DNA of 40,076 bases from a virus, in IMG/VR virus record IMGVR_UViG_3300025949_000050, positions 1 to 40,076 of that record; one strand, given 5' to 3'. The notes under the pieces were generated by a model. The model made no database searches. It was not told the DNA's origin and worked only from the letters and a program-made list of their open reading frames with translations. Position numbers and translations under genes: made by a program. This document shows, piece by piece, positions 1 through 40,076 of this stretch (position 1 is its first letter; each line of letters begins with the position of its first letter).

Positions 1-127
1 CAGGCGATTACAAAGGCGCAGCTGGCATCATGCTTGGCAAAATCGGGCTCGAAAAGTACGGAGCGGCTACTGTTGCGAGTCTTGCTAATAAACTCGGTGA
101 AGCTTTATTAAAAGATGGCGCTGCTCA
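1..127. repeat. Terminal direct repeat (left copy), circular overlap
   Basis: These 127 bases are identical to the last 127 bases of the window (39950-40076). The ejection protein reading frame continues in register across the join, so the window is one circular genome unit of 39,949 bp plus overlap. A length of 127 matches a common maximum assembly k-mer, so this is more likely an assembly overlap of a circular or circularly permuted molecule than a biological terminal repeat. Confidence 0.95.
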
Positions 128-2802: not shown

Positions 2803-2890
2803 GTGGAGTTTTGAGCAGGAAAAAGCCTGTTTGAAAATTCAGGATGTTGTCGAGCTAAAAAAATATTTAAACAAATGTGAGGCTAAATAA
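2702..2890 (+). CDS. Small lipoprotein, possible outer-membrane spanin
   Basis: 62 residues in a different frame from the overlapping 2605-2802 gene. The N-terminus is basic (MTFKQLKTLLKIK), followed by a hydrophobic core and a lipobox-like LMAC with Cys at about residue 25. The mature part is about 38 residues with two Cys and a helical KKYLNKCEAK end. The frame is open further upstream to 2609, but the signal peptide only makes sense from the ATG at 2702. A tiny lipoprotein nested in another small gene near holin-like genes is the usual look of an Rz1-type spanin. The last base overlaps the ATG of the next gene. Confidence 0.5.
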   Translation: MTFKQLKTLLKIKTLLISIIFLMACQTMQKPNLKWSFEQEKACLKIQDVVELKKYLNKCEAK

Positions 2891-5133
2891 TGTTAAAATT
2901 CACCGTAACTCTTTTATTTATAGCCTTACCTTTATATGCGGCTTATCAGCCTGATGTATCGTCAACAATAATCAATACCGTCGCGCATCCTGTGCCTGTA
3001 AATTTAGTCTCAGGCACAATTAGCGTCAGCACGTCCGGTACTTCGACAGCGGCAAATCAAGTCATAGCGAATGCATCGCTAAACAACATCGACGGGTCTT
3101 TGGCTACAATGTCTCTAGGAGTAGGTGTAAGCGGATCAAGTGTGCCTTTTTACTCTTATTTTATGTCGGGGTCTGACGGGAGTAATGCGCATAACATAAA
3201 GACCGACACAGCTGGCGTATTACAAACTAACATTTTAAATTCATCAATTCCTGTAACCGGGACTTTTTGGCAAACTACACAACCTGTTTCAATCGCTCAG
3301 ACTCTTACGGTTTCAGCGACTGGAAATTCGACAGTCAATCAAGGAACATCTCCGTGGGTTACTTCAATCAGCGGACAGCCTTTGTTTTCTCTTGGTGGGG
3401 TAAGTACCACAGGAGTATTATCCGTATCACAATCTGGCAATGTCGGAGTAAATCAGGTTAGCACTTGGGCCAGCTCTATAAGCGGCGTAAGTACGACTTC
3501 GGCTTTATCTGTTTCAACCACTGGCATAAATTTAGAATCATTAATGGGTGTGTCCACAACTTCTCCTTTAAATGTGAGAATAAGCGCTGTTTCATCGACA
3601 GATGTTTTAAGAGTTAACCTTCAAGCCGTATCTACAACGCTTAATGTGGCTCAATCTGGAATTTGGCAGCAATCCATAAGCGGTGTTAGCACTACAGGAA
3701 TTTTAGCGGTTTCTGCTACTGGTAACTCTACGGTGAATCAAGGCACAAGCCCATGGGTAATTTCTGGATCAGTATCTCCAACAGGGAATATCGGTGTCAC
3801 GCAAATCACCTCGCCTTGGGTTTCATCAATATCTAATCAGCCTTTAGTATCAATCGGCGCAGTTTCTACAACTGGTATTTTATCGGTATCAGCTACGGGC
3901 AACAGCGCAGTCAATCAAAATGGGATTTGGAATTTTGGCCTTAATGCGGTCTCAACTACAGCAGCTTTAAATACTGCGATTACATCAGTCTCAACATCTG
4001 GATTATTTAATACGTCGGTTTTAGGTGTAAGCACAACTTCCTCGCTTAACGTCGCTCAATCAACGGCAACAAATCTAAAAACGCAAGCTGAGAACTATCA
4101 AGGGGGCGCTGCCGTAGCCTCAGGAAATCCGCTTTACGTTTCGCTTGCTGGGGTTTCAACATCAACTGCAGTTCCGGTTTCATTCTCATCGGCATCATTT
4201 TCTATCGTAGGCGTAAGCACGACCAGCGCACTAAATAACAATATCTCAGGCGTGTCCACTACGGCGGTTTTGAATTCCTCTATACTAGGAGTGTCTACAA
4301 CATCGGTGCTTAACGTGTCCGGCACAACAGCAGGAATTAACCCTTCGGCCTCTGTGACCTCTGTGCCTATTACGGGACTAGATTCAGGAAATTCAACGGC
4401 GGTCGCTCTTGGGGCAAATGCGGTCTTTACGGGGACATATAAAGATGTTTCAGCTTATTCGAATGTAACAGTAAATGTCAGTTCCGATCAGTCTTCTGCA
4501 GCTGATGGATTTCAAATACAGTACTCATCAGATGGAACTAATTTAGACAGTGTTGATAAATACACAATACCGGCAGGCGGAGGAAAACAATACTCTGCGG
4601 CTCTAGGTACTAAGTTTTTCAGAGTGGTATATACAAATGGCGGAACGATTCAAGGCGCATTTAGACTTCAAACTAAATTGCACGCAGGAAATATTAAACC
4701 ATCTTCTATAAGAATAGCCGACAGTCAAACGGATCAGGACGATGTTCCATTAACAAAATCAATTATTGCCGCAATGAACGGAACCAGTACGGCTAATGTG
4801 GTTTTAGGGCCCAATAATTCTCTGACAGTTTCAGAGACCAACATGCTTCCTAATTTCGTGACGACCGCCACGGTATCAGCACCAAATGCAGCGAGCACAT
4901 CTTTTGTTGCTAAAACATCAAACGCCAACCGTAAGGGGCTAGAAATCATGAACACAACTGACGTGAATTGTTGGTTCGCCAAAACAACAACGGTCACAAG
5001 CACCACATCGACAGTTTATCTGCTTTCAGGATCTGGATACTACAACATGCCGTACCCGATTTACACAGGCCAAATTCAAGGCATATGTTCAGGTAATCCG
5101 ACAACAGGCGCCATAACAGTGACGGAGTATTAA
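2890..5133 (+). CDS. Large repetitive beta-rich fibre-like protein with signal peptide
   Basis: 747 residues. It begins with a clear signal peptide (MLKFTVTLLFIALPLYAAYQ). From about 120 to 480 it holds about fourteen imperfect repeats built on G/A-VSTT-x-x-L-x-V, interspersed with NSTVNQGTSPWV and TFWQTTQPVS units, typical of beta-helical phage fibres and structural proteins. Residues about 480-600 form a separate beta-domain (DVSAYSNVTVNVSSDQSSA). The C-terminal about 90 residues end in YYNMPYPIYTGQIQGICSG, a module common at the ends of such phage proteins. A secretion signal on a fibre-like protein is unusual: it may be cell-surface exposed rather than, or as well as, in the virion. Confidence 0.7.
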   Translation: MLKFTVTLLFIALPLYAAYQPDVSSTIINTVAHPVPVNLVSGTISVSTSGTSTAANQVIANASLNNIDGSLATMSLGVGVSGSSVPFYSYFMSGSDGSNAHNIKTDTAGVLQTNILNSSIPVTGTFWQTTQPVSIAQTLTVSATGNSTVNQGTSPWVTSISGQPLFSLGGVSTTGVLSVSQSGNVGVNQVSTWASSISGVSTTSALSVSTTGINLESLMGVSTTSPLNVRISAVSSTDVLRVNLQAVSTTLNVAQSGIWQQSISGVSTTGILAVSATGNSTVNQGTSPWVISGSVSPTGNIGVTQITSPWVSSISNQPLVSIGAVSTTGILSVSATGNSAVNQNGIWNFGLNAVSTTAALNTAITSVSTSGLFNTSVLGVSTTSSLNVAQSTATNLKTQAENYQGGAAVASGNPLYVSLAGVSTSTAVPVSFSSASFSIVGVSTTSALNNNISGVSTTAVLNSSILGVSTTSVLNVSGTTAGINPSASVTSVPITGLDSGNSTAVALGANAVFTGTYKDVSAYSNVTVNVSSDQSSAADGFQIQYSSDGTNLDSVDKYTIPAGGGKQYSAALGTKFFRVVYTNGGTIQGAFRLQTKLHAGNIKPSSIRIADSQTDQDDVPLTKSIIAAMNGTSTANVVLGPNNSLTVSETNMLPNFVTTATVSAPNAASTSFVAKTSNANRKGLEIMNTTDVNCWFAKTTTVTSTTSTVYLLSGSGYYNMPYPIYTGQIQGICSGNPTTGAITVTEY

Positions 5134-7071: not shown

Positions 7072-7338
7072 TTACTTGTTATTTCGTAAATAATTCAAAG
7101 TGCTGACCATGGTGGGGTCATTAAATAAGTCTGTTTCTTCGACAGACAGGGCCTTCGCAATCAATTGAATAGTATTGTGATCAGGCCACGAATTGCCGGT
7201 TTCGATCTTATTAACAGATTGAACCGATTTACCAATAAGTTCGGCCAACCCAGCCTGAGAAAGTCCGAGCTTCTTCCTTAATTCAACCATGTTTTTGCTT
7301 AAAGCGTCCTTAACTTCCAACGTCTTTGTTATATCCAT
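7072..7338 (-). CDS. XRE-family repressor (helix-turn-helix)
   Basis: 88 residues with a typical XRE/Cro-C1 domain at about 13-70: helix LRKKLGLSQAGLAELIG, recognition helix KSVQSVNKIETGNSWP, then HNTIQLIAKALSVEETDLF. It lacks the C-terminal cleavage domain of lambda CI, so it is a short repressor, not obviously RecA-inducible. Transcribed leftward and divergent from the early genes that begin at 7497, which fits a lysogeny repressor controlling the operators between them. No Shine-Dalgarno is visible before its ATG, so it may be translated from a leaderless or nearly leaderless message. Confidence 0.85.
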   Translation of the reverse strand: MDITKTLEVKDALSKNMVELRKKLGLSQAGLAELIGKSVQSVNKIETGNSWPDHNTIQLIAKALSVEETDLFNDPTMVSTLNYLRNNK

Positions 7339-10008: not shown

Positions 10009-10875
10009 ATGGCTATAACTCAAACTCTAAAAGGTGCTATTGCTGAATATTACGAAAATATCACTATTCTCAAGTCCTATTCTTCTCAGAAGCAAGAAAA
10101 GACCTATTTTAAGGACCTAGAAATCTACTTCCTCGGAAAATCTCTCTTGGAGATAACTCCTAAAGACATAGACTTCTTTCAATCTCATTTACTTAAAATC
10201 AAAAAGCCTCAGACCGTAAATAGGCAATTCACTTTATACAATCACTTTTTCAGCAAATGTGTTGAATGGATGTATTTAGAATTCAGTCCTACAAGATACA
10301 GCAAGAAAAAAAGAGAATACAAGCTTCCTATAATCGTCTGGGAGCGGTCAGAAGTTGCAATTATGCTCTGGCACTCAAGGAAAATTAAAAGGATACCTTG
10401 GCTGCGTGGAGCGCTCAGACTCTTGTTTTTAACAGGCATGAGGCCAATAGAATTAAGTAAGCTTAAAAAATGTGATTTATTCTTTAACTTAGAGCCAAAG
10501 TTTAAACATATACGCATATTCTGTGAAAAGAACGCCGAAGGCTATCGAACAATACCCGTAAGCGCGCCAGCAGAAAGACTCTTAAAAAATTTAGTTAAAA
10601 ATAAAAACGATGAAGATTATATTTTCTTAAATAACGGTGGTAGAAAAATTACGACCGGGCGAATTAATCAAAATCTAAAACGCTATAGTAAGCGCTTTAA
10701 CATAAAAACCAAGCCAACATACAAGCTGCGTCATACGTTCGCGACTAAGCTTTGTCGTAAAGATATTAATATCTACAAAATAAAAGATTTAATGGGTCAT
10801 TCTAAGATTGAAACAACCGAGCAATACTCTTTAGTAAATTTTGAAGATTTACGCAAAGTAGTTAATTCAAAATAA
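10009..10875 (+). CDS. int: Tyrosine recombinase (integrase)
   Basis: 288 residues. The N-terminal about 100 residues form a SAM-like DNA-binding domain. The catalytic domain shows Arg145 in LTGMRPIEL, Lys174, the box YKLRHTFA (Arg241, His242), LMGHSKIETT (His264) and the nucleophile Tyr273 in EQYSL. The usual first His of the HxLR box is Tyr238 here, a variation seen in some active members. It would catalyse integration and excision between attP and a host attB. It stands alone between two noncoding regions. The tRNA(Val)-like sequence 128 bases downstream is an attractive attP candidate. Confidence 0.93.
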   Translation: MAITQTLKGAIAEYYENITILKSYSSQKQEKTYFKDLEIYFLGKSLLEITPKDIDFFQSHLLKIKKPQTVNRQFTLYNHFFSKCVEWMYLEFSPTRYSKKKREYKLPIIVWERSEVAIMLWHSRKIKRIPWLRGALRLLFLTGMRPIELSKLKKCDLFFNLEPKFKHIRIFCEKNAEGYRTIPVSAPAERLLKNLVKNKNDEDYIFLNNGGRKITTGRINQNLKRYSKRFNIKTKPTYKLRHTFATKLCRKDINIYKIKDLMGHSKIETTEQYSLVNFEDLRKVVNSK

Positions 10876-11146: not shown

Positions 11147-11863
11147 TTGTCACCAATTGATTTATACAAAATCCAAGTCACCAACTTTCTAAAATACAAT
11201 TCGACCTTAAAAAAGGGCTATAAAGCGACCCTAATTTCTAATAATTTTTGTTCTGATTCAAAGCTCGGAATGGTGCCATTGACAGTCCGTTGGATGTTCC
11301 TTGGTATCGTACTGACATGTGGGGACTATACCAGTGATACGGTAGAGATGAACGAGAGACAGCTAAGAGAGTTGTTAGAGAGTTCATGGAGTGTGCCTAG
11401 AGCACTAAGTTCACTTCAATCAATTCAAGTACTTACATATCAAAAAATCAACCTCTTCTTAATAGAAGATAATAGAAAAGAAGATAAAGGAATAGAAAAG
11501 AATAAAACCTCCGAACCGAAAGAATCGGTTGCAGAGGACTCAGCAAATTCAAAAAATAATTTACCTGCTACAATTCAAAAAACTCAAATCGCTATTTCTG
11601 AGAACAAGTCTGTAGAAATTAAATCAGATCTTATCAAAGCATGGGCCGATACTTACCCAAAAGAATACCTCGAGCTTGAATTAAAAAAAGCTCGTAACTG
11701 GCTAGTCGCCAATCCTCACAAAGCGCCTAAATCAAATTTTGGTAGATTTTTCAATTCTTGGTTTGACCGAGGATGGGAAGCCTATCGCAAAAATTTACCT
11801 TCAAAACCGACATCAACAACCGTTGACGAGTTAATGAATTTCATGGGGTGGGATAATGCTTAA
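11147..11863 (+). CDS. Replication initiator-like protein (O/DnaT-type)
   Basis: 238 residues from TTG at 11147, chosen because AAAGGAG ends six bases before it. Residues about 35-105 look like a winged-helix region (MVPLTVRWMFLGIVLTCGDY and NERQLRELLESSWSVPRALS). A low-complexity charged linker follows (about 108-160). The C-terminal domain (AWADTYPKEYLELELKKARN, then KSNFGRFFNSWFDRGWEAYR) matches the shape of C-terminal regions in phage replication initiators and DnaT-like proteins that contact helicase or its loader. It heads a tightly coupled operon with replication and nucleotide-metabolism genes. No origin iterons were seen inside the linker. Confidence 0.6.
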   Translation: MSPIDLYKIQVTNFLKYNSTLKKGYKATLISNNFCSDSKLGMVPLTVRWMFLGIVLTCGDYTSDTVEMNERQLRELLESSWSVPRALSSLQSIQVLTYQKINLFLIEDNRKEDKGIEKNKTSEPKESVAEDSANSKNNLPATIQKTQIAISENKSVEIKSDLIKAWADTYPKEYLELELKKARNWLVANPHKAPKSNFGRFFNSWFDRGWEAYRKNLPSKPTSTTVDELMNFMGWDNA

Positions 11864-12455
11864 GTATGAAGAATTTTTAACTGAAATGACTGGGTTAATT
11901 GAGCGATTCCCCTCCCTCAAAAACCGCTCTTTACTCAGTCGTATTCATTCAATTCTAATGAATATCTCTTCAGAAGGCGCGAGAGAAGTTATCGTAGAAA
12001 TTAGCGATGGCGCAAAAGGCGTTCCCACCCCTAACGACTTCAAGGAGCACGCGAGAACATGGAGAAGTAAGTTTTTTCATAAAAATGGGTATTACTACGG
12101 ATTTGAACCAATCGACTCTCAAGAGACTAATGTAAAATGTGAATTTTGCTTTGATTGCGGAATTGTAAAAGTAAAACACAACGTGCCGGACGATTTCATA
12201 CAACTCATGCGCTGTAACTGCGAGGCGGGCTTAAGATCAAGTGCTGCGCTCCCACCTTACAACAATGATGCCAGACACGTATTCGTTCGAGTGGCGCTGA
12301 ATCCTGCATGGTTTAACCCGAATATTTCGACAACAGACGACTTAGACAAGATGGGTTCAAAGTTACTTCAAAAACACGACACTTGGAGAGTCATCATCTC
12401 TAAGTCTGAAAATTATTGGAAAGGATTGGGATATAAACATGATCGAATCAGTTAG
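11856..12455 (+). CDS. Putative helicase loader-like or accessory replication protein
   Basis: 199 residues, overlapping the initiator gene by eight bases. The N-terminus is helical (MLKYEEFLTEMTGLIERFPS), as in lambda P-type loaders. A Cys cluster CEFCFDCG (about 92-99) with RCNCEAG (about 119-125) looks like a zinc-ribbon. Position straight after an O-like gene favours a helicase loader role, but no ATPase motif is present and the family is not recognised. Confidence 0.4.
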   Translation: MLKYEEFLTEMTGLIERFPSLKNRSLLSRIHSILMNISSEGAREVIVEISDGAKGVPTPNDFKEHARTWRSKFFHKNGYYYGFEPIDSQETNVKCEFCFDCGIVKVKHNVPDDFIQLMRCNCEAGLRSSAALPPYNNDARHVFVRVALNPAWFNPNISTTDDLDKMGSKLLQKHDTWRVIISKSENYWKGLGYKHDRIS

Positions 12456-12654
12456 AGGAACTATGTTCGGAAGATCTCGTGCTAAAAATCATGAAGCCGA
12501 ACAAATAAATAATTTAAGAGTTCATATTGGAATGTTGCCAGTGAAAGAAGGCAATAGGAAGTGCCTATGCTGCGAAAAGAATTTCTTTAGCGAAGATCTG
12601 GCTAACCAAAAATGCTGCGACAACTGCCGAAATCATATTAAGGACGACGTATGA
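12439..12654 (+). CDS. Small zinc-finger-like protein
   Basis: 71 residues. The C-terminal half has CLCCEKNF (about 43-50) and CCDNCRNH (about 59-66), a CxC/CxxC pattern matching a small zinc-ribbon. The N-terminus is basic. It overlaps the genes on both sides and is coupled by ATGA to the PRPP-synthetase-like gene. Probably a nucleic-acid-binding or regulatory small protein. Confidence 0.6.
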   Translation: MIESVRGTMFGRSRAKNHEAEQINNLRVHIGMLPVKEGNRKCLCCEKNFFSEDLANQKCCDNCRNHIKDDV

Positions 12655-13376
12655 TAAGACTAGAAAGCCACAAAATAGCACCGACATTTTTTCCGGACAA
12701 GACGTCACAAGTTTGGAAAATCCCACAAACACTTTTAAATGAACATTCAGCAACAATTTACTGGGACTATGAGAATGAATCGGAGTTAATCCATATAGCT
12801 CAACTAAAAGACCTTTTAGATCAAAACGAAGTTAAAGCGGTTTTGGAAATTTCATATTTACCTTACGCAAGACAGGACAAAGAAATTTCTAACGAATCGA
12901 CCTTCGCATTGAAAACATTTTCTAAAATTCTTAACTGCTTACAATTTGATACGGTTTTTATTTCAGATCCTCACTCTAAAACAGCGACCGATCTCATTCA
13001 GAATTCAGTAGCTCAATACAATGCGCTACCAAACATAAAACACGACATTCTTTGTTATCCCGACAAAGGGGCCGTATTGAAATATTCCGTTCTTTATAAA
13101 ACTGATTATGCCTATGGCGAAAAAGTCAGAGACCAGCTATCGGGCAATATTTTAAACTACGCTCTATTTGGAAATGTAAAAAATAAATCTGTTTTAATAG
13201 TCGATGATATTTGTGATGGGGGAGCGACTTTTATCTTTTTAACAAAGGCTTTGTTAGAAGCCGAAGCCAAAGAAGTTAATTTGTTTGTCTCCCACGGGCT
13301 TTTTACCAAAGGAATTAAAATATTAAAAGATGCCGGGATTAACCGAATCTTTACAAAACAAGGAGAAATTATATGA
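12651..13376 (+). CDS. PRPP-synthetase-like enzyme, candidate ADPR-PP synthetase (NARP1)
   Basis: 241 residues, about 70 shorter than ordinary ribose-phosphate pyrophosphokinases. Recognisable family elements: PYARQDK (71-77, nucleotide-binding Arg-Gln-Asp), DPH (106-108, catalytic His), PDKG (137-140, matching SPDxGG), the PRPP-type loop VDDICDGGAT (184-193) and SHGLF (214-218). It belongs to the type I phosphoribosyltransferase/PRPP synthetase fold. It sits four bases overlapped with a NAMPT-like gene. In phage NAD+ reconstitution pathway 1 a diverged PRPP-synthetase-like enzyme makes ADP-ribose pyrophosphate from ADPR and ATP. That substrate choice is inferred from context; ordinary PRPP synthesis feeding NAMPT remains possible. 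Confidence 0.75.
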   Translation: MIRLESHKIAPTFFPDKTSQVWKIPQTLLNEHSATIYWDYENESELIHIAQLKDLLDQNEVKAVLEISYLPYARQDKEISNESTFALKTFSKILNCLQFDTVFISDPHSKTATDLIQNSVAQYNALPNIKHDILCYPDKGAVLKYSVLYKTDYAYGEKVRDQLSGNILNYALFGNVKNKSVLIVDDICDGGATFIFLTKALLEAEAKEVNLFVSHGLFTKGIKILKDAGINRIFTKQGEII

Positions 13377-14830
13377 TCCCTGCGCCGAACTATACCGATT
13401 TTTATAAAACCACTCATCACACAATGTATCCAGCGAATACTACAAAAGTTTACTCTAACTTTACGCCGAGAATTTCTCGAATTGATGGAATTAGCGCAGT
13501 TGTAGTTTTTGGAGTTCAATACTTCATTAAAGACTTTTTAATCAGACGATGGAACGAAAGCTTTTTCAATAAACCTAAAGATTTAGTTATAGCTCAGTAT
13601 CAAAGACGCATGGACAACTCTTTAGGCAAAGGAGCGGTGAATTGTGAACACCTATCTAAACTTCATGACCTAGGACATTTACCTATCGAGCTAAAAGCAT
13701 TACCGGAGGGCTCATTATGCCCGTTAAAAGTTCCTATTTTGACTATCACAAATACTCATGATGAATTTGCATGGCTACCTAATTTTTTAGAGACAATTTT
13801 ATCTAACGTGATTTGGCACCCGGTCACTTCGGCAACAATTGCATACAACTATAAAAAAGTTCTTAAAGGTTACGCATCAAGAACAAATCCTGAAATGATC
13901 GATTTTATTCAATGGCAAGGCCATGACTTTTCAATGAGAGGTCAATCAAGTTTTGAGTCGTCATTAGTCTCTGGCGCGGCTCATATGACATCTTTTAATG
14001 GATCTGACACAGTTCCGGCTATTGACTGGTTAGAGCATTTTTACGAAGCTAACAGCGAATCGGAACTTATTGCAGGCAGCGTTCCAGCTACAGAGCATTC
14101 GGTTATGTGTCTGGGTGGTAAAGATACCGAAATTGATACCTATCGACGCTTAATCAATGACGTTTGTAAAACTGGCATTATTTCGATTGTTTCTGATACT
14201 TGGGATTATTTTTCATTATTAACCAAAACTTTGCCTTTATTAAAAAATGAAATCATGGCTCGTAATGGAAAATTAGTTATCCGTCCAGACAGCGGTGATC
14301 CTGTTAAGATTATTTGTGGAGACAAAGAGGCACCCGAAGGAACTCCTCAATATAAGGGATCAATCGAACTACTTTGGGAATTGTTTGGCGGCACTACAAC
14401 GTCAAAAAGATTTAAACAATTAGATTCGCATATCGGCTTAATATACGGTGATTCGATCACGCTTGACCGCTGCAACGAGATTTTAAGACAGCTTGAAGAA
14501 AAGGGTTTTGCATCCACTAATGTGGTATTTGGAATAGGTTCATACACTTATCAATATGTAACCCGTGACACTTTTGGTTTTGCCATGAAAGCGACATACG
14601 GAATTATTAACGGACAACCTGTTGAAATTTTCAAAGATCCGATTACAGACGGCGGTGTAAAAAAGTCTGCCAAGGGTCTTTTAAAAGTTAATGAAGATCT
14701 TACTTTAAGTGAATGTGTAACGCCGGACGAAGAAAAGACCGGATTATTAGAAACTGTTTTCTTAAATGGAAAACTTGTTAAAGACCAATCGCTTAAAGAA
14801 ATTAGAGATAGGCTTAATAGTCATGTCTAA
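13373..14830 (+). CDS. NAMPT-like enzyme, candidate nicotinamide ADPR-transferase (NARP1)
   Basis: 485 residues, full length for nicotinamide phosphoribosyltransferase. Conserved elements run in order: TDFYKTTHH (8-16), LPIELKALPEG (103-113), GHDFSMRG (183-190), FNGSDTV (208-214, Asp212 equals the nicotinamide-contacting Asp of human NAMPT), ATEHS with catalytic His242, SDTWDYF (274-280), IRPDSGDP (303-310), GIGSYTYQYVTRDTFGFAMK and FKDP. It joins nicotinamide to a pyrophosphorylated ribose donor. Translationally coupled (ATGA) to the PRPP-synthetase-like gene, it would rebuild NAD+ directly from ADPR-PP (pathway 1) or make NMN. No NMN adenylyltransferase is seen in the window, which favours the ADPR-PP route. 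Confidence 0.9.
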   Translation: MIPAPNYTDFYKTTHHTMYPANTTKVYSNFTPRISRIDGISAVVVFGVQYFIKDFLIRRWNESFFNKPKDLVIAQYQRRMDNSLGKGAVNCEHLSKLHDLGHLPIELKALPEGSLCPLKVPILTITNTHDEFAWLPNFLETILSNVIWHPVTSATIAYNYKKVLKGYASRTNPEMIDFIQWQGHDFSMRGQSSFESSLVSGAAHMTSFNGSDTVPAIDWLEHFYEANSESELIAGSVPATEHSVMCLGGKDTEIDTYRRLINDVCKTGIISIVSDTWDYFSLLTKTLPLLKNEIMARNGKLVIRPDSGDPVKIICGDKEAPEGTPQYKGSIELLWELFGGTTTSKRFKQLDSHIGLIYGDSITLDRCNEILRQLEEKGFASTNVVFGIGSYTYQYVTRDTFGFAMKATYGIINGQPVEIFKDPITDGGVKKSAKGLLKVNEDLTLSECVTPDEEKTGLLETVFLNGKLVKDQSLKEIRDRLNSHV

Positions 14831-15131
14831 ATACCGAGTCCAAGACACAATGCTAGCCGATAAAGTGAGAAATTCACCTTGTATCGTCACAGGAACACCG
14901 CCACCGAGTGACTGTCACCACGTTAAGAGCAAGGGGAGCTTTGGCGCTGATGTAGCGTGGAACTTGTGCCCATTGACGAGAGAACTTCATCAGGAGTTTC
15001 ACAAGATCGGAATAGAAACTTTCGCGAACAAATACGAGAAGTTTAAAAACTGGTTATTAGCTAACGGCTGGACTTTTGAATCTGGCAAATGGAGACATTT
15101 TGAAACCCACCAAACCACAAACAACATTTAA
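14823..15131 (+). CDS. HNH endonuclease-like protein
   Basis: 102 residues from the ATG at 14823, which overlaps the stop of the preceding gene; a longer frame from 14766 would run deep into that gene. The core CHHVKSKGSFGADVAWNLCP (31-50) with LTRELHQEFHKIG has the HH...N...H pattern of small phage HNH nucleases (His32/33, Asn47, His56, His60). The usual first CxxC is reduced to one Cys at 20. Possibly a Holliday-junction or recombination nuclease for replication intermediates, as similar genes are in other phages. Confidence 0.7.
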   Translation: MSKYRVQDTMLADKVRNSPCIVTGTPPPSDCHHVKSKGSFGADVAWNLCPLTRELHQEFHKIGIETFANKYEKFKNWLLANGWTFESGKWRHFETHQTTNNI

Positions 15132-15193: not shown

Positions 15194-15847
15194 ATGATTT
15201 ATCAAGGGTTACCAGAGGTAAATTTAAAACATTTCAATATAGAGCCAGTTTATGGACTTCATTGTTTGTATATGCCGATTAAGCTTAAATCATCATGGGA
15301 ATTTTCGATACCAGCTAGCTTCGATTTTCTTAGAGATATTATTTATACGTGTATGGAAAAGGACACTTTTGATATATTCACTAATTACATTTATTTAAGT
15401 TATGAGTGTTCATATGTTCAAAAAGGAATTCCTCAGAAAAGACCAGGCATACACGCTGATGGATTTTTGACAAAAGATATAAATTATATCTGGTACGACA
15501 AAGATCCGACTATCTTTTATGATCAGAAGTTTAGAATTGACAAAAATCACGCAAGATCAATGGAGCAATTTGAAGAGCAAGCTTCAGAACAACATGAAAT
15601 CACATATCCAGTAAAAACTTTATTAAGATTAACTGAGCAAGTTGTTCACAGATCTGCAATTCCGACAGAGTCGGGCGTTCGTCAGTTTATTAAAATTTCA
15701 ATATCTACTGATAAATATAATTTAAAAGGTAACACAAAAAATCCTTTAATTGATTACGACTGGATAATGCACGAAAGATCTTTAGTCAGAAACCATCCTA
15801 TTTATAAAGAAAGTGATACTTTTCCTGATGAGGTTGTAAATGCATAA
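15194..15847 (+). CDS. Candidate 2OG-Fe(II) oxygenase-like protein
   Basis: 217 residues, RBS GGGAGAG before the ATG. A beta-rich protein with GIHADGF (85-91; His87, Asp89), VVHRSA (151-156; His152) and VRQFIKISIS (162-171; Arg163). This HxD...H...R order and spacing is the ligand set of iron/2-oxoglutarate dioxygenases, in which the two His and Asp hold iron and the Arg holds 2OG. The substrate is unknown; phage members include DNA-base hydroxylases and small-molecule enzymes. The assignment is by motif only. Confidence 0.45.
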   Translation: MIYQGLPEVNLKHFNIEPVYGLHCLYMPIKLKSSWEFSIPASFDFLRDIIYTCMEKDTFDIFTNYIYLSYECSYVQKGIPQKRPGIHADGFLTKDINYIWYDKDPTIFYDQKFRIDKNHARSMEQFEEQASEQHEITYPVKTLLRLTEQVVHRSAIPTESGVRQFIKISISTDKYNLKGNTKNPLIDYDWIMHERSLVRNHPIYKESDTFPDEVVNA

Positions 15848-16172: not shown

Positions 16173-16294
16173 TCCGCCTAATCCTCCTCCCACCCATCTG
16201 TCTTTTTCTCGTTATCGCATCCCTTACAGGCCTTACATACGCTAGACCGATGATCAACAAAGTAGAGAATAGAATTATAGGAGTGGTGAAGTGA
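16169..16294 (+). CDS. Tiny membrane peptide
   Basis: 41 codons between ATGA overlap with the DUF3307 stop and GTGA overlap with the next gene's start. The first 25 residues are hydrophobic (MIRLILLPPICLFLVIASLT), followed by a short basic tail. The precise coupling at both ends supports a real gene. Function unknown. Confidence 0.6.
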   Translation: MIRLILLPPICLFLVIASLTGLTYARPMINKVENRIIGVVK

Positions 16295-16920
16295 TAAATG
16301 CTCTTTTCGTTGAAACTAATGGTGTTTATTTTAATCAGCCAAACATCGAACCTTGGGATATTTTAAGGGACGCCAAGAAATGTAATAACGGAGCTCCAGC
16401 GATAGCGCACCCGCCTTGTCAAAGATGGGGTAGATATTGGTCAGGTGGGCCTAGCGTGAAAGAAAAACGTAAGCTTGGTGATGATAATGGATGTTTTGCT
16501 TTCACATTAGATTATGTGATGGAAAATATGGGAATAATCGAACACCCAGAAGCAAGTCACGCATGGAAAAAGTTCGGAATAAATAAGCCGCCTAGAAATG
16601 GTGGATGGGTTTATGCTTTTGATAAATATGGTTTTTGGACTTGTTGTGTTGAGCAAGGGCACTATGGGCACAAAGCGAGAAAAGCTACATGGCTGTTTTT
16701 TGCAGGTCACCACAAGCCAAAGGATCTTATCTGGGGCAAATCGCACAACGGAAATAATGTAAGAGTAGATACAGGATTTCGATCTAAAGAAGCGGCGAAA
16801 GCTGCAAGAGCTCGCGAAGATTACAAACCGATTAAGAGATTATCACTTAAAGAAAGATTAGGAACTCCAATAGCTTTTCGTGATCTTTTAATTGAGTTGG
16901 TCGAGCCTTTAACTAAATAG
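16291..16920 (+). CDS. PPC-motif protein, possibly a diverged DNA methyltransferase
   Basis: 209 residues from GTG at 16291 (AGGAG seven bases upstream). Near the N-terminus is AHPPCQRWGRYW (39-50), which resembles the PPC loop of cytosine-5 methyltransferases. Later blocks include NMGIIEHPEASHAWKKFG and ATWLFFAGHH. Proteins of this kind are common in phages and are sometimes called methyltransferases, but the S-adenosylmethionine-binding motif I is not evident. Treat as a conserved phage protein with an uncertain enzymatic role. Confidence 0.5.
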   Translation: MINALFVETNGVYFNQPNIEPWDILRDAKKCNNGAPAIAHPPCQRWGRYWSGGPSVKEKRKLGDDNGCFAFTLDYVMENMGIIEHPEASHAWKKFGINKPPRNGGWVYAFDKYGFWTCCVEQGHYGHKARKATWLFFAGHHKPKDLIWGKSHNGNNVRVDTGFRSKEAAKAARAREDYKPIKRLSLKERLGTPIAFRDLLIELVEPLTK

Positions 16921-37109: not shown

Positions 37110-38308
37110 TGGCGCAAGTCGATTCATCAATTTTCTTTCAGCAGCAGCCTATTGATGTAAGTGGATCTATCACCAAGGGCCTAAACATGGCTGACATGAT
37201 CTATCAAAGACAACAGCAAAGAAAAGAGCAGCAAAAACAGCAAGATTTAAAAGACGCATTTAATGCCGGTATTACACAAAATCCTGATGGCTCAATTTCT
37301 CATGATCCAACCAAAACTATTTCAGCTATTGCAAATTTAGCAAAAAACCCAAATTCAGCAGTAGGCGGTCAAGACTTAGTTCAGGCGCAACAACAGTTTG
37401 CATCTCAAGCCGCCCAACAAGCAGAGGCTAAGCAGAAGAAGCAACAAGCCGATGCCGCTTATACTTTTCAGAGCTTAGATCCTGCGAAAGTAAGAGACCA
37501 AGCTTCATGGATTGCGGCAAAACAACAAGCTATTAAAGACGGTCATTTAGAAGCTGCTCAATTGCCCGATCAATATGATCCTAATTTGCAAAAACAATTA
37601 TTAGACCACGCTCAACGCTTGGCTTTAACTCCTGAACAATTCTCAAGTTTGCAAGAAAGACAACAAACTCATGCCGATGCAAGAGCTGAGCGAGGACTTA
37701 AGCGCGATGAAATGGCGAATAATAAACAAATCGCTGAACTTGATAAAATCGGATCGCGACTTGAGCAAATGCGCGGAAGTCCAGCCGCAGCTCAAGCTGA
37801 AAAAGATATTTATGCTGCTCAAAAAGTTAATTCTCTCGTTAATCTTTACGGAGACCCTAATAAGTTAAATCCGCAGCAAGTTCAATTAGTGGCGTCCGAG
37901 GTAGCGAAAATTGCATCTGGCGGCGTTCCGTCTATTCATGAACTCGAGGGGTTAAATCCTAGTACTATTCCTAAATCTTTAGCTGAATTAGCTCAGAAAT
38001 TTGCAAATAAACCAATCGCAGCCGATCAAGGGGCATTTGTTAAAGCAATGAAAGATTACACAGATTCTTTAACAAAAGACGCGAAAGCGGTTATTTCAGA
38101 TCGCTACGGACGAATTTTAAAACCTTATGAATCTACTTATGGAAAGCATCCAGTTTTTCAAGGTTATCAAGATCAATATTTGAATCGTTTCAATCAACAA
38201 GAACAGCTTCAAAATTCACACCCTCAAGATGATCAAGCAGTTCAATGGGCCAAATCGAATCCGAATGACCCTAGAGCAGCGCAAATTCTGAAAGCGAATG
38301 GTCTATGA
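37109..38308 (+). CDS. Internal virion (ejection) protein, gp20-like position
   Basis: 399 residues, long Gln/Lys-rich helices (DMIYQRQQQRKEQQKQQDLK) with a more compact C-terminal half (KPIAADQGAFVKAMKDYTDS and SDRYGRILKPYESTYG). Second of three adjacent virion genes, matching the slot of P22 gp20. One-base overlap at each end. Confidence 0.65.
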   Translation: MAQVDSSIFFQQQPIDVSGSITKGLNMADMIYQRQQQRKEQQKQQDLKDAFNAGITQNPDGSISHDPTKTISAIANLAKNPNSAVGGQDLVQAQQQFASQAAQQAEAKQKKQQADAAYTFQSLDPAKVRDQASWIAAKQQAIKDGHLEAAQLPDQYDPNLQKQLLDHAQRLALTPEQFSSLQERQQTHADARAERGLKRDEMANNKQIAELDKIGSRLEQMRGSPAAAQAEKDIYAAQKVNSLVNLYGDPNKLNPQQVQLVASEVAKIASGGVPSIHELEGLNPSTIPKSLAELAQKFANKPIAADQGAFVKAMKDYTDSLTKDAKAVISDRYGRILKPYESTYGKHPVFQGYQDQYLNRFNQQEQLQNSHPQDDQAVQWAKSNPNDPRAAQILKANGL

Positions 38309-40076
38309 GTTTTAATCCAGATCAATACTTAAAAGAAAAACAAGCTTCTGGATTTAACCCAGACCAGTATTTATCTGAGAAATTAGGACCACAAAATCCC
38401 CAAGGTTATGACTATTCTAATATTCCACAAGTAGCGAGTGATTTAGGTCATGCGGCTATAAACTCTTTACCTACCGCGGGCATGATTGGTGGAGCCTTGC
38501 TTGGCGAAGGGGTGGCCTCAGTTCCTTTGGCTGCTGCTGGAACTATGGCAGGCGAATCACTTAAGCGTGGCCTTAATAAAATGTTCTTTAATGAAGATCA
38601 AGGCGACGTTTCTGACATAGCCAAATCCCAAGGAAAAGCAGCACTAGAAGGCGCAGCGGGAGAAATGGGCGGTCAAGTTCTCGGAAAAGTAGTCGGTTCA
38701 GCGGCAAATGCAGTCGGTAATTTTTCAAAAGATTTAGCAAAGAAAGCAGCCTTTAAAGCGGTTGGTCCAGTTTTAAGAGATTACCGAACGATGGACGCCG
38801 ATCAACTTGGTAAATACGCGCTTGATAACGGATTGATTAAGGCCGGCGACACTTACGAATCAATAGCTGCAAAAGTCGATGAACATTTAAAACAAGTCGG
38901 TCAAAAGCTTGATGAAATTTATCAGAATGCTGATGCAGCCTTTAAGGAAAAGTTAAACAAAACTGGTTTTGATCCTGTACGTGACAAAGCAGCGGTTTTA
39001 AATCAAGCAAAAAAAGAACTCGCCAATACTGTTGGCGGCGACGCTGCTATTTCACAACTTGAAACATATTTAGACCAAGTTGCAAATGCTCACGGCAATA
39101 AACCTATGCAAGAGGCTATGCAAAAATATGGCTCTCAGATTCAAGAGTATTTGCCTAAATTAAAACAATTTTTAAAAGATAAAAAGATTTACATAAATCA
39201 AGTTGGCGAAGCTGGAAAAGACCTAAATCAACCAGTTTTACCGATATTCAGTGATCTACAAAAGACTGGCGAAGGAATTTCAAAAGTCGAGCTTAACGGA
39301 CAGCCGCCGAATGTAATGGCGCCGAATCAATCAGAGTTTGGCACGCAGATGGACTTAATGTCTTTACCTACGAGACCACCTCAAGGATTTAATTCGCCTC
39401 ATGGTGACGATCTGTTGCCGCTACAACAACAGATGTTTTTAGACAATACAAATACACAATTACACTTAGGCGAAGGACAGCAAGGTTTTGCAACTGGAAC
39501 TGATCTTGTGCCTAGAGCTTATATCGATGCACAAGGAAAAATAGTCGAACAAGGAACGGGACAAACTCAATTTTCATTGCCACCAGAAAAGCCGACAAGA
39601 CCTGTTCGTCCTGAAGATATTAGAAATCCAATGACGCCGCGGCAAACAAACGATGTTAAGTCTGCGATTGATAAAACGATAAATTACTCAAGAAATCCAA
39701 TGAATCCAGAGCCGGCAAAAGAGGCCGCGTTTTCATCTGCAAGAAATACTGTAAATCAAATCAATCTTAAATCATTAAACGACTTAGGCGAAGACGGAAA
39801 AGCTCTTATTCAGGCCAATAAAGAATATGGAAGCGCAAAAAGCATTAGCAATATCGTAAATGACCGCTTGAATAGGATGGCCTCAAATAAAAACTTCGGT
39901 CTTACAAATGCCATAACGGGCGTCGCAGCTTTGGGTTACGGAGCCAAAACAGGCGATTACAAAGGCGCAGCTGGCATCATGCTTGGCAAAATCGGGCTCG
40001 AAAAGTACGGAGCGGCTACTGTTGCGAGTCTTGCTAATAAACTCGGTGAAGCTTTATTAAAAGATGGCGCTGCTCA
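38305..40076 (+). CDS. Large ejection protein (N-terminal and central part), gp16-like position
   Basis: Open from ATG at 38305 to the right edge and continues at base 1 to 539 (727 residues in total). Opens MSFNPDQYLKEKQASGFNPD with a duplicated FNPDQYL motif seen in phage internal proteins. Two hydrophobic Gly/Ala-rich segments (about 55-82) could insert into membrane, followed by long helical regions, an inserted Pro-rich linker around 330-400, and another hydrophobic stretch (GLTNAITGVAALGYG) near the join. Consistent with a membrane-penetrating ejection protein. Confidence 0.8.
   Translation, partial: MSFNPDQYLKEKQASGFNPDQYLSEKLGPQNPQGYDYSNIPQVASDLGHAAINSLPTAGMIGGALLGEGVASVPLAAAGTMAGESLKRGLNKMFFNEDQGDVSDIAKSQGKAALEGAAGEMGGQVLGKVVGSAANAVGNFSKDLAKKAAFKAVGPVLRDYRTMDADQLGKYALDNGLIKAGDTYESIAAKVDEHLKQVGQKLDEIYQNADAAFKEKLNKTGFDPVRDKAAVLNQAKKELANTVGGDAAISQLETYLDQVANAHGNKPMQEAMQKYGSQIQEYLPKLKQFLKDKKIYINQVGEAGKDLNQPVLPIFSDLQKTGEGISKVELNGQPPNVMAPNQSEFGTQMDLMSLPTRPPQGFNSPHGDDLLPLQQQMFLDNTNTQLHLGEGQQGFATGTDLVPRAYIDAQGKIVEQGTGQTQFSLPPEKPTRPVRPEDIRNPMTPRQTNDVKSAIDKTINYSRNPMNPEPAKEAAFSSARNTVNQINLKSLNDLGEDGKALIQANKEYGSAKSISNIVNDRLNRMASNKNFGLTNAITGVAALGYGAKTGDYKGAAGIMLGKIGLEKYGAATVASLANKLGEALLKDGAA
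39950..40076. repeat. Terminal direct repeat (right copy), circular overlap
   Basis: Exact copy of bases 1-127. Joining the two copies restores a full-length 727-residue ejection protein, which supports a closed genome. P22-type headful packaging would give circularly permuted ends and such a circular assembly. Confidence 0.95.

Follow-up and report, generated by a model that had tools for sequence, protein, structure and literature searches.

NARP1, the NAD+-forming pair of Adps and Namat, has already been published and is abundant in phages; the original paper is reportedly that of Osterman et al. (Nature, 2024). Several relatives of the pair described here have a published function, namely the SPbetaL1 and Paenibacillus pairs (PMC12774641), NrsAB of phage ICP1, which acts against the NADase system Nezha by raising NAD+ (PMC11559045), and the DyoEdafos pair (PMC13232231). 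The hallmark of Namat is an adenine clamp composed of a loop residue (Arg40 in SPbetaL1) and the helix motif GSX..X..X.TRD, in which the third and seventh positions are aromatic; the selectivity of Adps has been called obscure and its structure unsolved (PMC12774641).

The stretch of DNA analyzed in this study (the window; 40,076 bases) contains an Adps homologue adjacent to a Namat homologue, the gene arrangement by which NARP1 is recognized, and we estimate the probability that this pair is a NARP1 cassette, as judged from its sequence, at about 0.9. A NARP1-like pathway had been proposed in the sequence-only reading of this DNA, and both phylogenetic trees, the clamp residues and the altered Adps loop now back that proposal. 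The pair is one more ordinary case of a published system, carried by a small, temperate-looking podovirus, and the side results weigh more: the moderate weight of the case comes from the mosaic pairing of the two genes and from the hypothesis concerning the Adps loop.

The first gene, adps (positions 12651..13376, + strand; 241 aa), was assigned from phrog_619, the tree and a structural model, and its product has a PRPP-synthetase fold without the C-terminal extension. The second gene, namat (13373..14830, + strand; 485 aa), was assigned from matches to Namat structures and the tree. Both reading frames were found where the sequence-only reading had placed them, coupled by an ATGA overlap (13373-13376). 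A gene encoding a CxxC zinc-finger-like protein of 71 aa (12439..12654, + strand; weak phrog_13335 match, 5.5e-5) likewise overlaps the adps start by ATGA, and the namat stop is overlapped by a gene for an HNH-nuclease-like protein (14823..15131, + strand; phrog_398, 2e-6; phrog_22514 HNH, 1.4e-4; PF16784 below cut-off). Together with two overlapping genes located 5' of the CxxC gene (11147..12455, + strand), they form a single run of six overlapping genes (11147-15131). The cassette thus lies between a zinc-finger-like gene and an HNH gene, as had been described, both family matches being weak. The further designation of this run as a replication operon is unproven, given these weak matches and the two upstream genes, for which Pfam and PHROGs gave zero family matches.

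The SPbetaL1 NARP1 of a Bacillus phage (Adps WIT26982.1, Namat WIT26983.1; structures 9w5w and 9w5x) resembles this locus in its gene order (adps-namat), its overlapping gene ends and its Namat (53% identity), whose contact positions and adenine clamp are kept in the window protein. It differs in the host, in the phage type and in its Adps, which has 31 more residues than the window Adps and shares only 32% identity with it. ICP1 NrsAB represents the same gene pair (Namat approximately 50% and Adps approximately 33% identical), but the ICP1 genes are 33 bp apart.

By analogy with these relatives, we infer that the window proteins would carry out the published reactions, with the anti-defence effect, in the host of this phage. 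Adps would form ADPR-PP by moving pyrophosphate from ATP onto ADP-ribose, and Namat would join nicotinamide to ADPR-PP, forming NAD+ in a single step. In an infected cell in which a TIR, SIR2 or SEFIR defence splits NAD+ into ADP-ribose and nicotinamide, the pair would rebuild NAD+ from exactly those products, and the phage could complete its cycle.

The homology of the first protein to Adps is far beyond chance (phrog_619, 1e-60). The motifs noted earlier are present (YARQDK at residues 72-77, DPH at 106-108 and VDDICDGGAT at 184-193), and the identity with the aligned, tested Adps proteins is about one third (SPbetaL1, 32%; ICP1, 33%). Neither the window Adps nor the SPbetaL1 Adps reaches the cut-off of any NCBIfam PRPP-synthetase model, whereas E. 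coli Prs passes easily. In the phylogenetic tree, which included only 5 Prs rows, the window protein grouped with Namat-linked Adps and was split from bacterial and archaeal housekeeping Prs with 100% support; the comparison proposed in the sequence-only reading therefore came out on the side of Adps. The AlphaFold2 model (mean pLDDT 97) has PRPP synthetases as its best PDB matches; the TM-score is approximately 0.78 when normalized to the query and 0.61 when normalized to the target, which fits a core that is complete but has no C-terminal part. Fold, tree and the kept ATP, Mg and ribose residues support the identification of the first gene product as a putative Adps. PADLOC matches of this protein to ShosT and PsyrT were weak and were dismissed as due to a common phosphoribosyltransferase domain.

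The protein had been described as shortened, which holds: its 241 aa make it shorter than any other of the 220 complete Adps collected (median 278 aa), compared to 315 aa for E. coli Prs. This shortness, and a mosaic origin (see below) that could have mismatched the partners, would fit a decayed or inactive cassette. We consider such decay extremely unlikely, since both frames are open, every catalytic residue is kept, the junction overlaps are intact, the Adps model reaches the confidence given above, and Adps proteins of 242-250 aa are present in relatives.

Comparison of Adps with Prs yielded one residue as a testable determinant of specificity. In E. coli Prs, the ligands of ribose-5-phosphate are D170, D220, D221, T225 and T228 (PMC9232217), the phosphate in this site being held by the backbone amides of residues 224-226 and, through a hydrogen bond, by the Thr225 side chain (PMC6332680). 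The equivalent substrate-phosphate loop of the window Adps, identified by alignment, is DDICDGGATF (residues 185-194; 13203..13232, + strand; DDLSSFGGTF in SPbetaL1), in which Gly190 takes the place of Thr225, the mark of housekeeping Prs. The loop was examined in an alignment of 222 Namat-linked Adps and 11 Prs, with a further 35 Prs loci measured separately; the two Prs sets overlap by 8, leaving 38 different Prs. All 222 Adps keep the catalytic residues of E. coli Prs (H131, D170, K194, R196, D220 and D221) and have Thr or Ser at the position of T228. Thr225, by comparison, is present in 38/38 Prs (11/11 aligned, 35/35 measured separately) and lost in 222/222 Adps, being replaced by Gly in 200 of them and by Lys, Tyr, Arg, Phe, Met, Asn or Ala in the others. 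Two further substitutions are nearly as general: Leu229 to Phe (220/222) and Ala246 to Leu (217/222).

The 5'-phosphate of ADP-ribose is internal, with AMP attached to it, and we therefore propose that a pocket that has lost the Thr side chain could accommodate the AMP moiety of the substrate. The alignment suggests that the Thr225 position is a candidate determinant of Adps specificity.

The homology of the second protein is likewise far beyond chance (phrog_448, 4e-190; PF04095, 1e-43). The best structure matches were 9w5x/9w5w (554 bits; the sequence aligned is SPbetaL1 Namat), followed by 9ke8 (443 bits), human NAMPT (approximately 232 bits) and Xcc NAMPT (approximately 217 bits). The 485-aa product of this NAMPT-like gene contains the previously noted Asp212, His242 and RPDSGDP (residues 304-310). 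The catalytic His242 (14096..14098, + strand) is invariant in 18/18 aligned Namat and NAMPT sequences, and the nicotinamide/ribose core is kept (Phe186, Arg189, Asp212, His242, Arg304 and Asp306). This core and the fold are shared with phage and cellular NAMPT (NadV), which, apart from pNAD1 NadV, form a separate group (100%) and have no adenine clamp.

Both parts of the clamp were identified in the window protein. The selectivity clamp helix (SCH) motif, GSYTYQYVTRD (residues 389-399; 14537..14569, + strand), conforms to the consensus published for Namat and has an aromatic residue at both position 3 and position 7. The selectivity clamp loop (SCL; 13463..13489, + strand) contains Arg36, which alignment identifies as the equivalent of SPbetaL1 Arg40 (PMC12774641); an SCL was called when the stacking residue is Arg, or when Lys/Tyr is followed by a stacking residue, and Arg36 is of the former kind. 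All 20 positions that contact NAD+ in SPbetaL1 are kept (20/20), with conservative changes of Ala362 to Ser and Phe392 to Tyr. In six phage NAMPTs used as controls the core is kept, but the first clamp aromatic is replaced by Gly/Gln and the second by Glu, Met, Lys, Ala or His.

In a maximum-likelihood analysis of 88 proteins, the NAMPTs, including that of Xcc, were separated from the Namat group at 100%. The window protein was placed in the Namat group together with SPbetaL1 and ICP1, its nearest neighbors being the Manatee Spring podovirus (MW202524) and two viral contigs, so that the phylogeny suggested for this protein also favors Namat over the Xcc and phage NAMPTs. NadV of the Haemophilus ducreyi plasmid pNAD1 (locus L200, 492-1979) lies inside the Namat group as well, yet reads GAQTYQRNTRD, without the clamp aromatics; it may have reverted from ADPR-PP to PRPP as its substrate, or may have branched off early. 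Since this protein nests among Namats, group membership alone is not decisive for the substrate, and the substrate argument is carried by the adenine clamp. The second gene product is supported as a predicted Namat with the ADPR-PP-specific clamp residues in place. A NARP1-like pair with the motif GSFTYQYNTRD, followed 3' by a third overlapping gene, was also observed on a large plasmid of Arthrobacter caoxuetaonis (L202, 1657-4656).

Hosts have their own NMN adenylyltransferase. The two enzymes might hence act in plain salvage, the first making PRPP and the second NMN, which the host enzyme would convert into NAD+. The sequence-only reading had argued against this route from the lack of a phage NMN adenylyltransferase. 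The lack itself was confirmed (PF01467 gave no match down to E = 1 in the whole, probably complete, genome), but the argument was not, because a host-supplied enzyme makes the absence weak evidence and no obstacle to salvage. The fold and catalytic core shared with Prs and NAMPT, and the position of pNAD1 NadV in the Namat group, are compatible with salvage, and in vitro SPbetaL1 Namat also uses PRPP, producing NMN about half as fast as human NAMPT does (PMC12774641). Nevertheless, we regard PRPP/NMN salvage as very unlikely: the clamp aromatics, absent from NAMPTs and from pNAD1 NadV, are present in the window Namat, and the window Adps lacks the Thr that binds the terminal 5'-phosphate and stays below all Prs cut-offs. 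The six control phage NAMPTs differ in their gene context too, an Adps-like gene being located upstream in none of them (0/6) and an annotated NMN adenylyltransferase-type or cytidyltransferase gene nearby in four (4/6). Salvage by a housekeeping Prs and NAMPT was rejected on the clamp, the loop and the trees. Two other phage loci contain an adjoining macro-domain (ADP-ribose-binding) or Appr-1-p processing gene: one beside a Pakpunavirus NARP1 pair (L011, 3670-4149) and the other, in a Rhizobium phage, beside a NAMPT/NMN adenylyltransferase pair (L018, 3919-4380).

The closest named relative of the window Namat is that of Caudoviricetes sp. ctKR88 from Manatee Spring (MW202524; 67% identity), also a podovirus in which a small gene, adps and namat are coupled. 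Its Adps, however, is of a different lineage (28% identity), and outside the pair it shares with the window a single short, weak match. For 42 cassettes, careful trees of the two genes were built as a pair and compared. The window Namat grouped with L004 (Manatee Spring), L024, L025 and L026 (support 100/99), whereas the window Adps grouped with L083, L090, L092 and L096 (support 100/99). Forcing the Namat into the L083/L090/L092/L096 group was rejected (AU p 6e-7; log-likelihood 113 lower), as was forcing the Adps to L004, L024 and L026 (AU p 1.5e-7; log-likelihood 197 lower); the groups for these tests were named after sight of the first trees, and the likelihood gaps are large. Identity along the pair switches lineage at the gene boundary and not within a gene. 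By these trees the cassette is a mosaic of a Manatee-Spring-type Namat and an L090-type Adps, derived from different lineages of the pair, and the adps gene was probably exchanged at the overlapping junction, joining the two.

When more sequences were included, the same Namat lineage was paired with the other Adps lineage in at least two more loci, L221 (IMGVR_UViG_3300015360_000046) and L288, on different Adps branches. IMGVR_UViG_3300015360_000046 (L221, L283) has the same overlapping junction as the window, but its Adps lies on another branch, and a clade joining the window and L221 Adps was rejected (AU p 5e-4). These pairings are most simply explained if adps was replaced more than once beside a resident namat. 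An assembly chimera is an unlikely source of the mosaic, considering the switch at the gene junction, the matching contig ends and the like pairing in two independent contigs (L221 and L288).

In FastTree trees of 222 pairs, 42 partner changes were counted, compared to a minimum of 24 for 25 clades; this number includes tree error and is not the number of events. A scan with a single Namat protein had returned one locus, and better recovery was obtained with alignment queries. Among phage records, 1,938 of 50,697 matched the window Namat, a count that takes in NAMPTs. NCBIfam names both Namat and NAMPT "nicotinate phosphoribosyltransferase", and public annotation therefore hides NARP1 cassettes.

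Adps and Namat would have nothing but a diffusible intermediate to share, and partners could hence be exchanged freely. The existence of mosaic pairs is evidence from nature that neither protein needs a specific contact with the other, in line with a negative pull-down (PMC12774641). We see about an even chance that both of the following hold: (i) NARP1 partners, having only a diffusible intermediate in common, reassort between phage lineages at the junction, and (ii) the switch from PRPP to ADPR-PP synthetase rests largely on the loss of Thr225. Neither idea was found in the literature searched.

The record begins and ends with the same 127 bases (window 1-127 and 39950-40076); such an exact direct repeat is the usual mark of a circular assembly, and an open reading frame (38305-40074) runs on into 3-539 across the record ends. 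On account of the repeat, the record is probably a complete circular genome of about 39,949 bases (approximately 39.95 kb). It encodes a terminase, a P22-type portal, and scaffold, coat, head-closure and DNA-ejection proteins, as well as a tyrosine integrase (10009-10875) and a repressor-like HTH protein (7072-7338, minus strand). The phage looks like a small P22-type podovirus, temperate by gene content, that carries NARP1. Namat was sought in 12 terminase-related contigs, several of which are fragments, and was found in none (0/12); the cassette therefore looks accessory in this phage lineage. Outside the structural genes, almost no early genes or flanks are common to the relatives. No tRNA was found in the genome, Rfam gave zero matches, and promoter and terminator counts were not above chance level.

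These features bear on a variant of the main reading, in which NARP1 works but its main gain is a general NAD+/ADP-ribose balance for replication or for the lysogen, and not counter-defence. The integrase and the repressor-like gene make expression in a lysogen possible. Namat-type genes are also common in Bacteroidota chromosomes, about half with Adps upstream, and a self-regulatory role has been proposed for these chromosomal genes (PMC12774641). On the other hand, absence of the pair from the terminase relatives is as expected for an accessory gene, and ICP1 NrsAB costs fitness without an NADase defence (PMC11559045). We judge this balance role possible but rather unlikely, and prefer NARP1 acting in counter-defence.

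Just 3' of the cassette and the HNH gene, a 217-aa protein is encoded (15194-15847; phrog_1843, 3e-27). A 209-aa protein (16291-16920; phrog_12600, 4e-52; no Pfam match) contains the stretch PPCQRWGRYWSGGP. Finally, a 747-aa repetitive protein rich in Ser, Thr and Val (2890-5133; no PHROGs match), with repeats like GVSTTGxLxVS, is possibly a secreted or virion surface protein.
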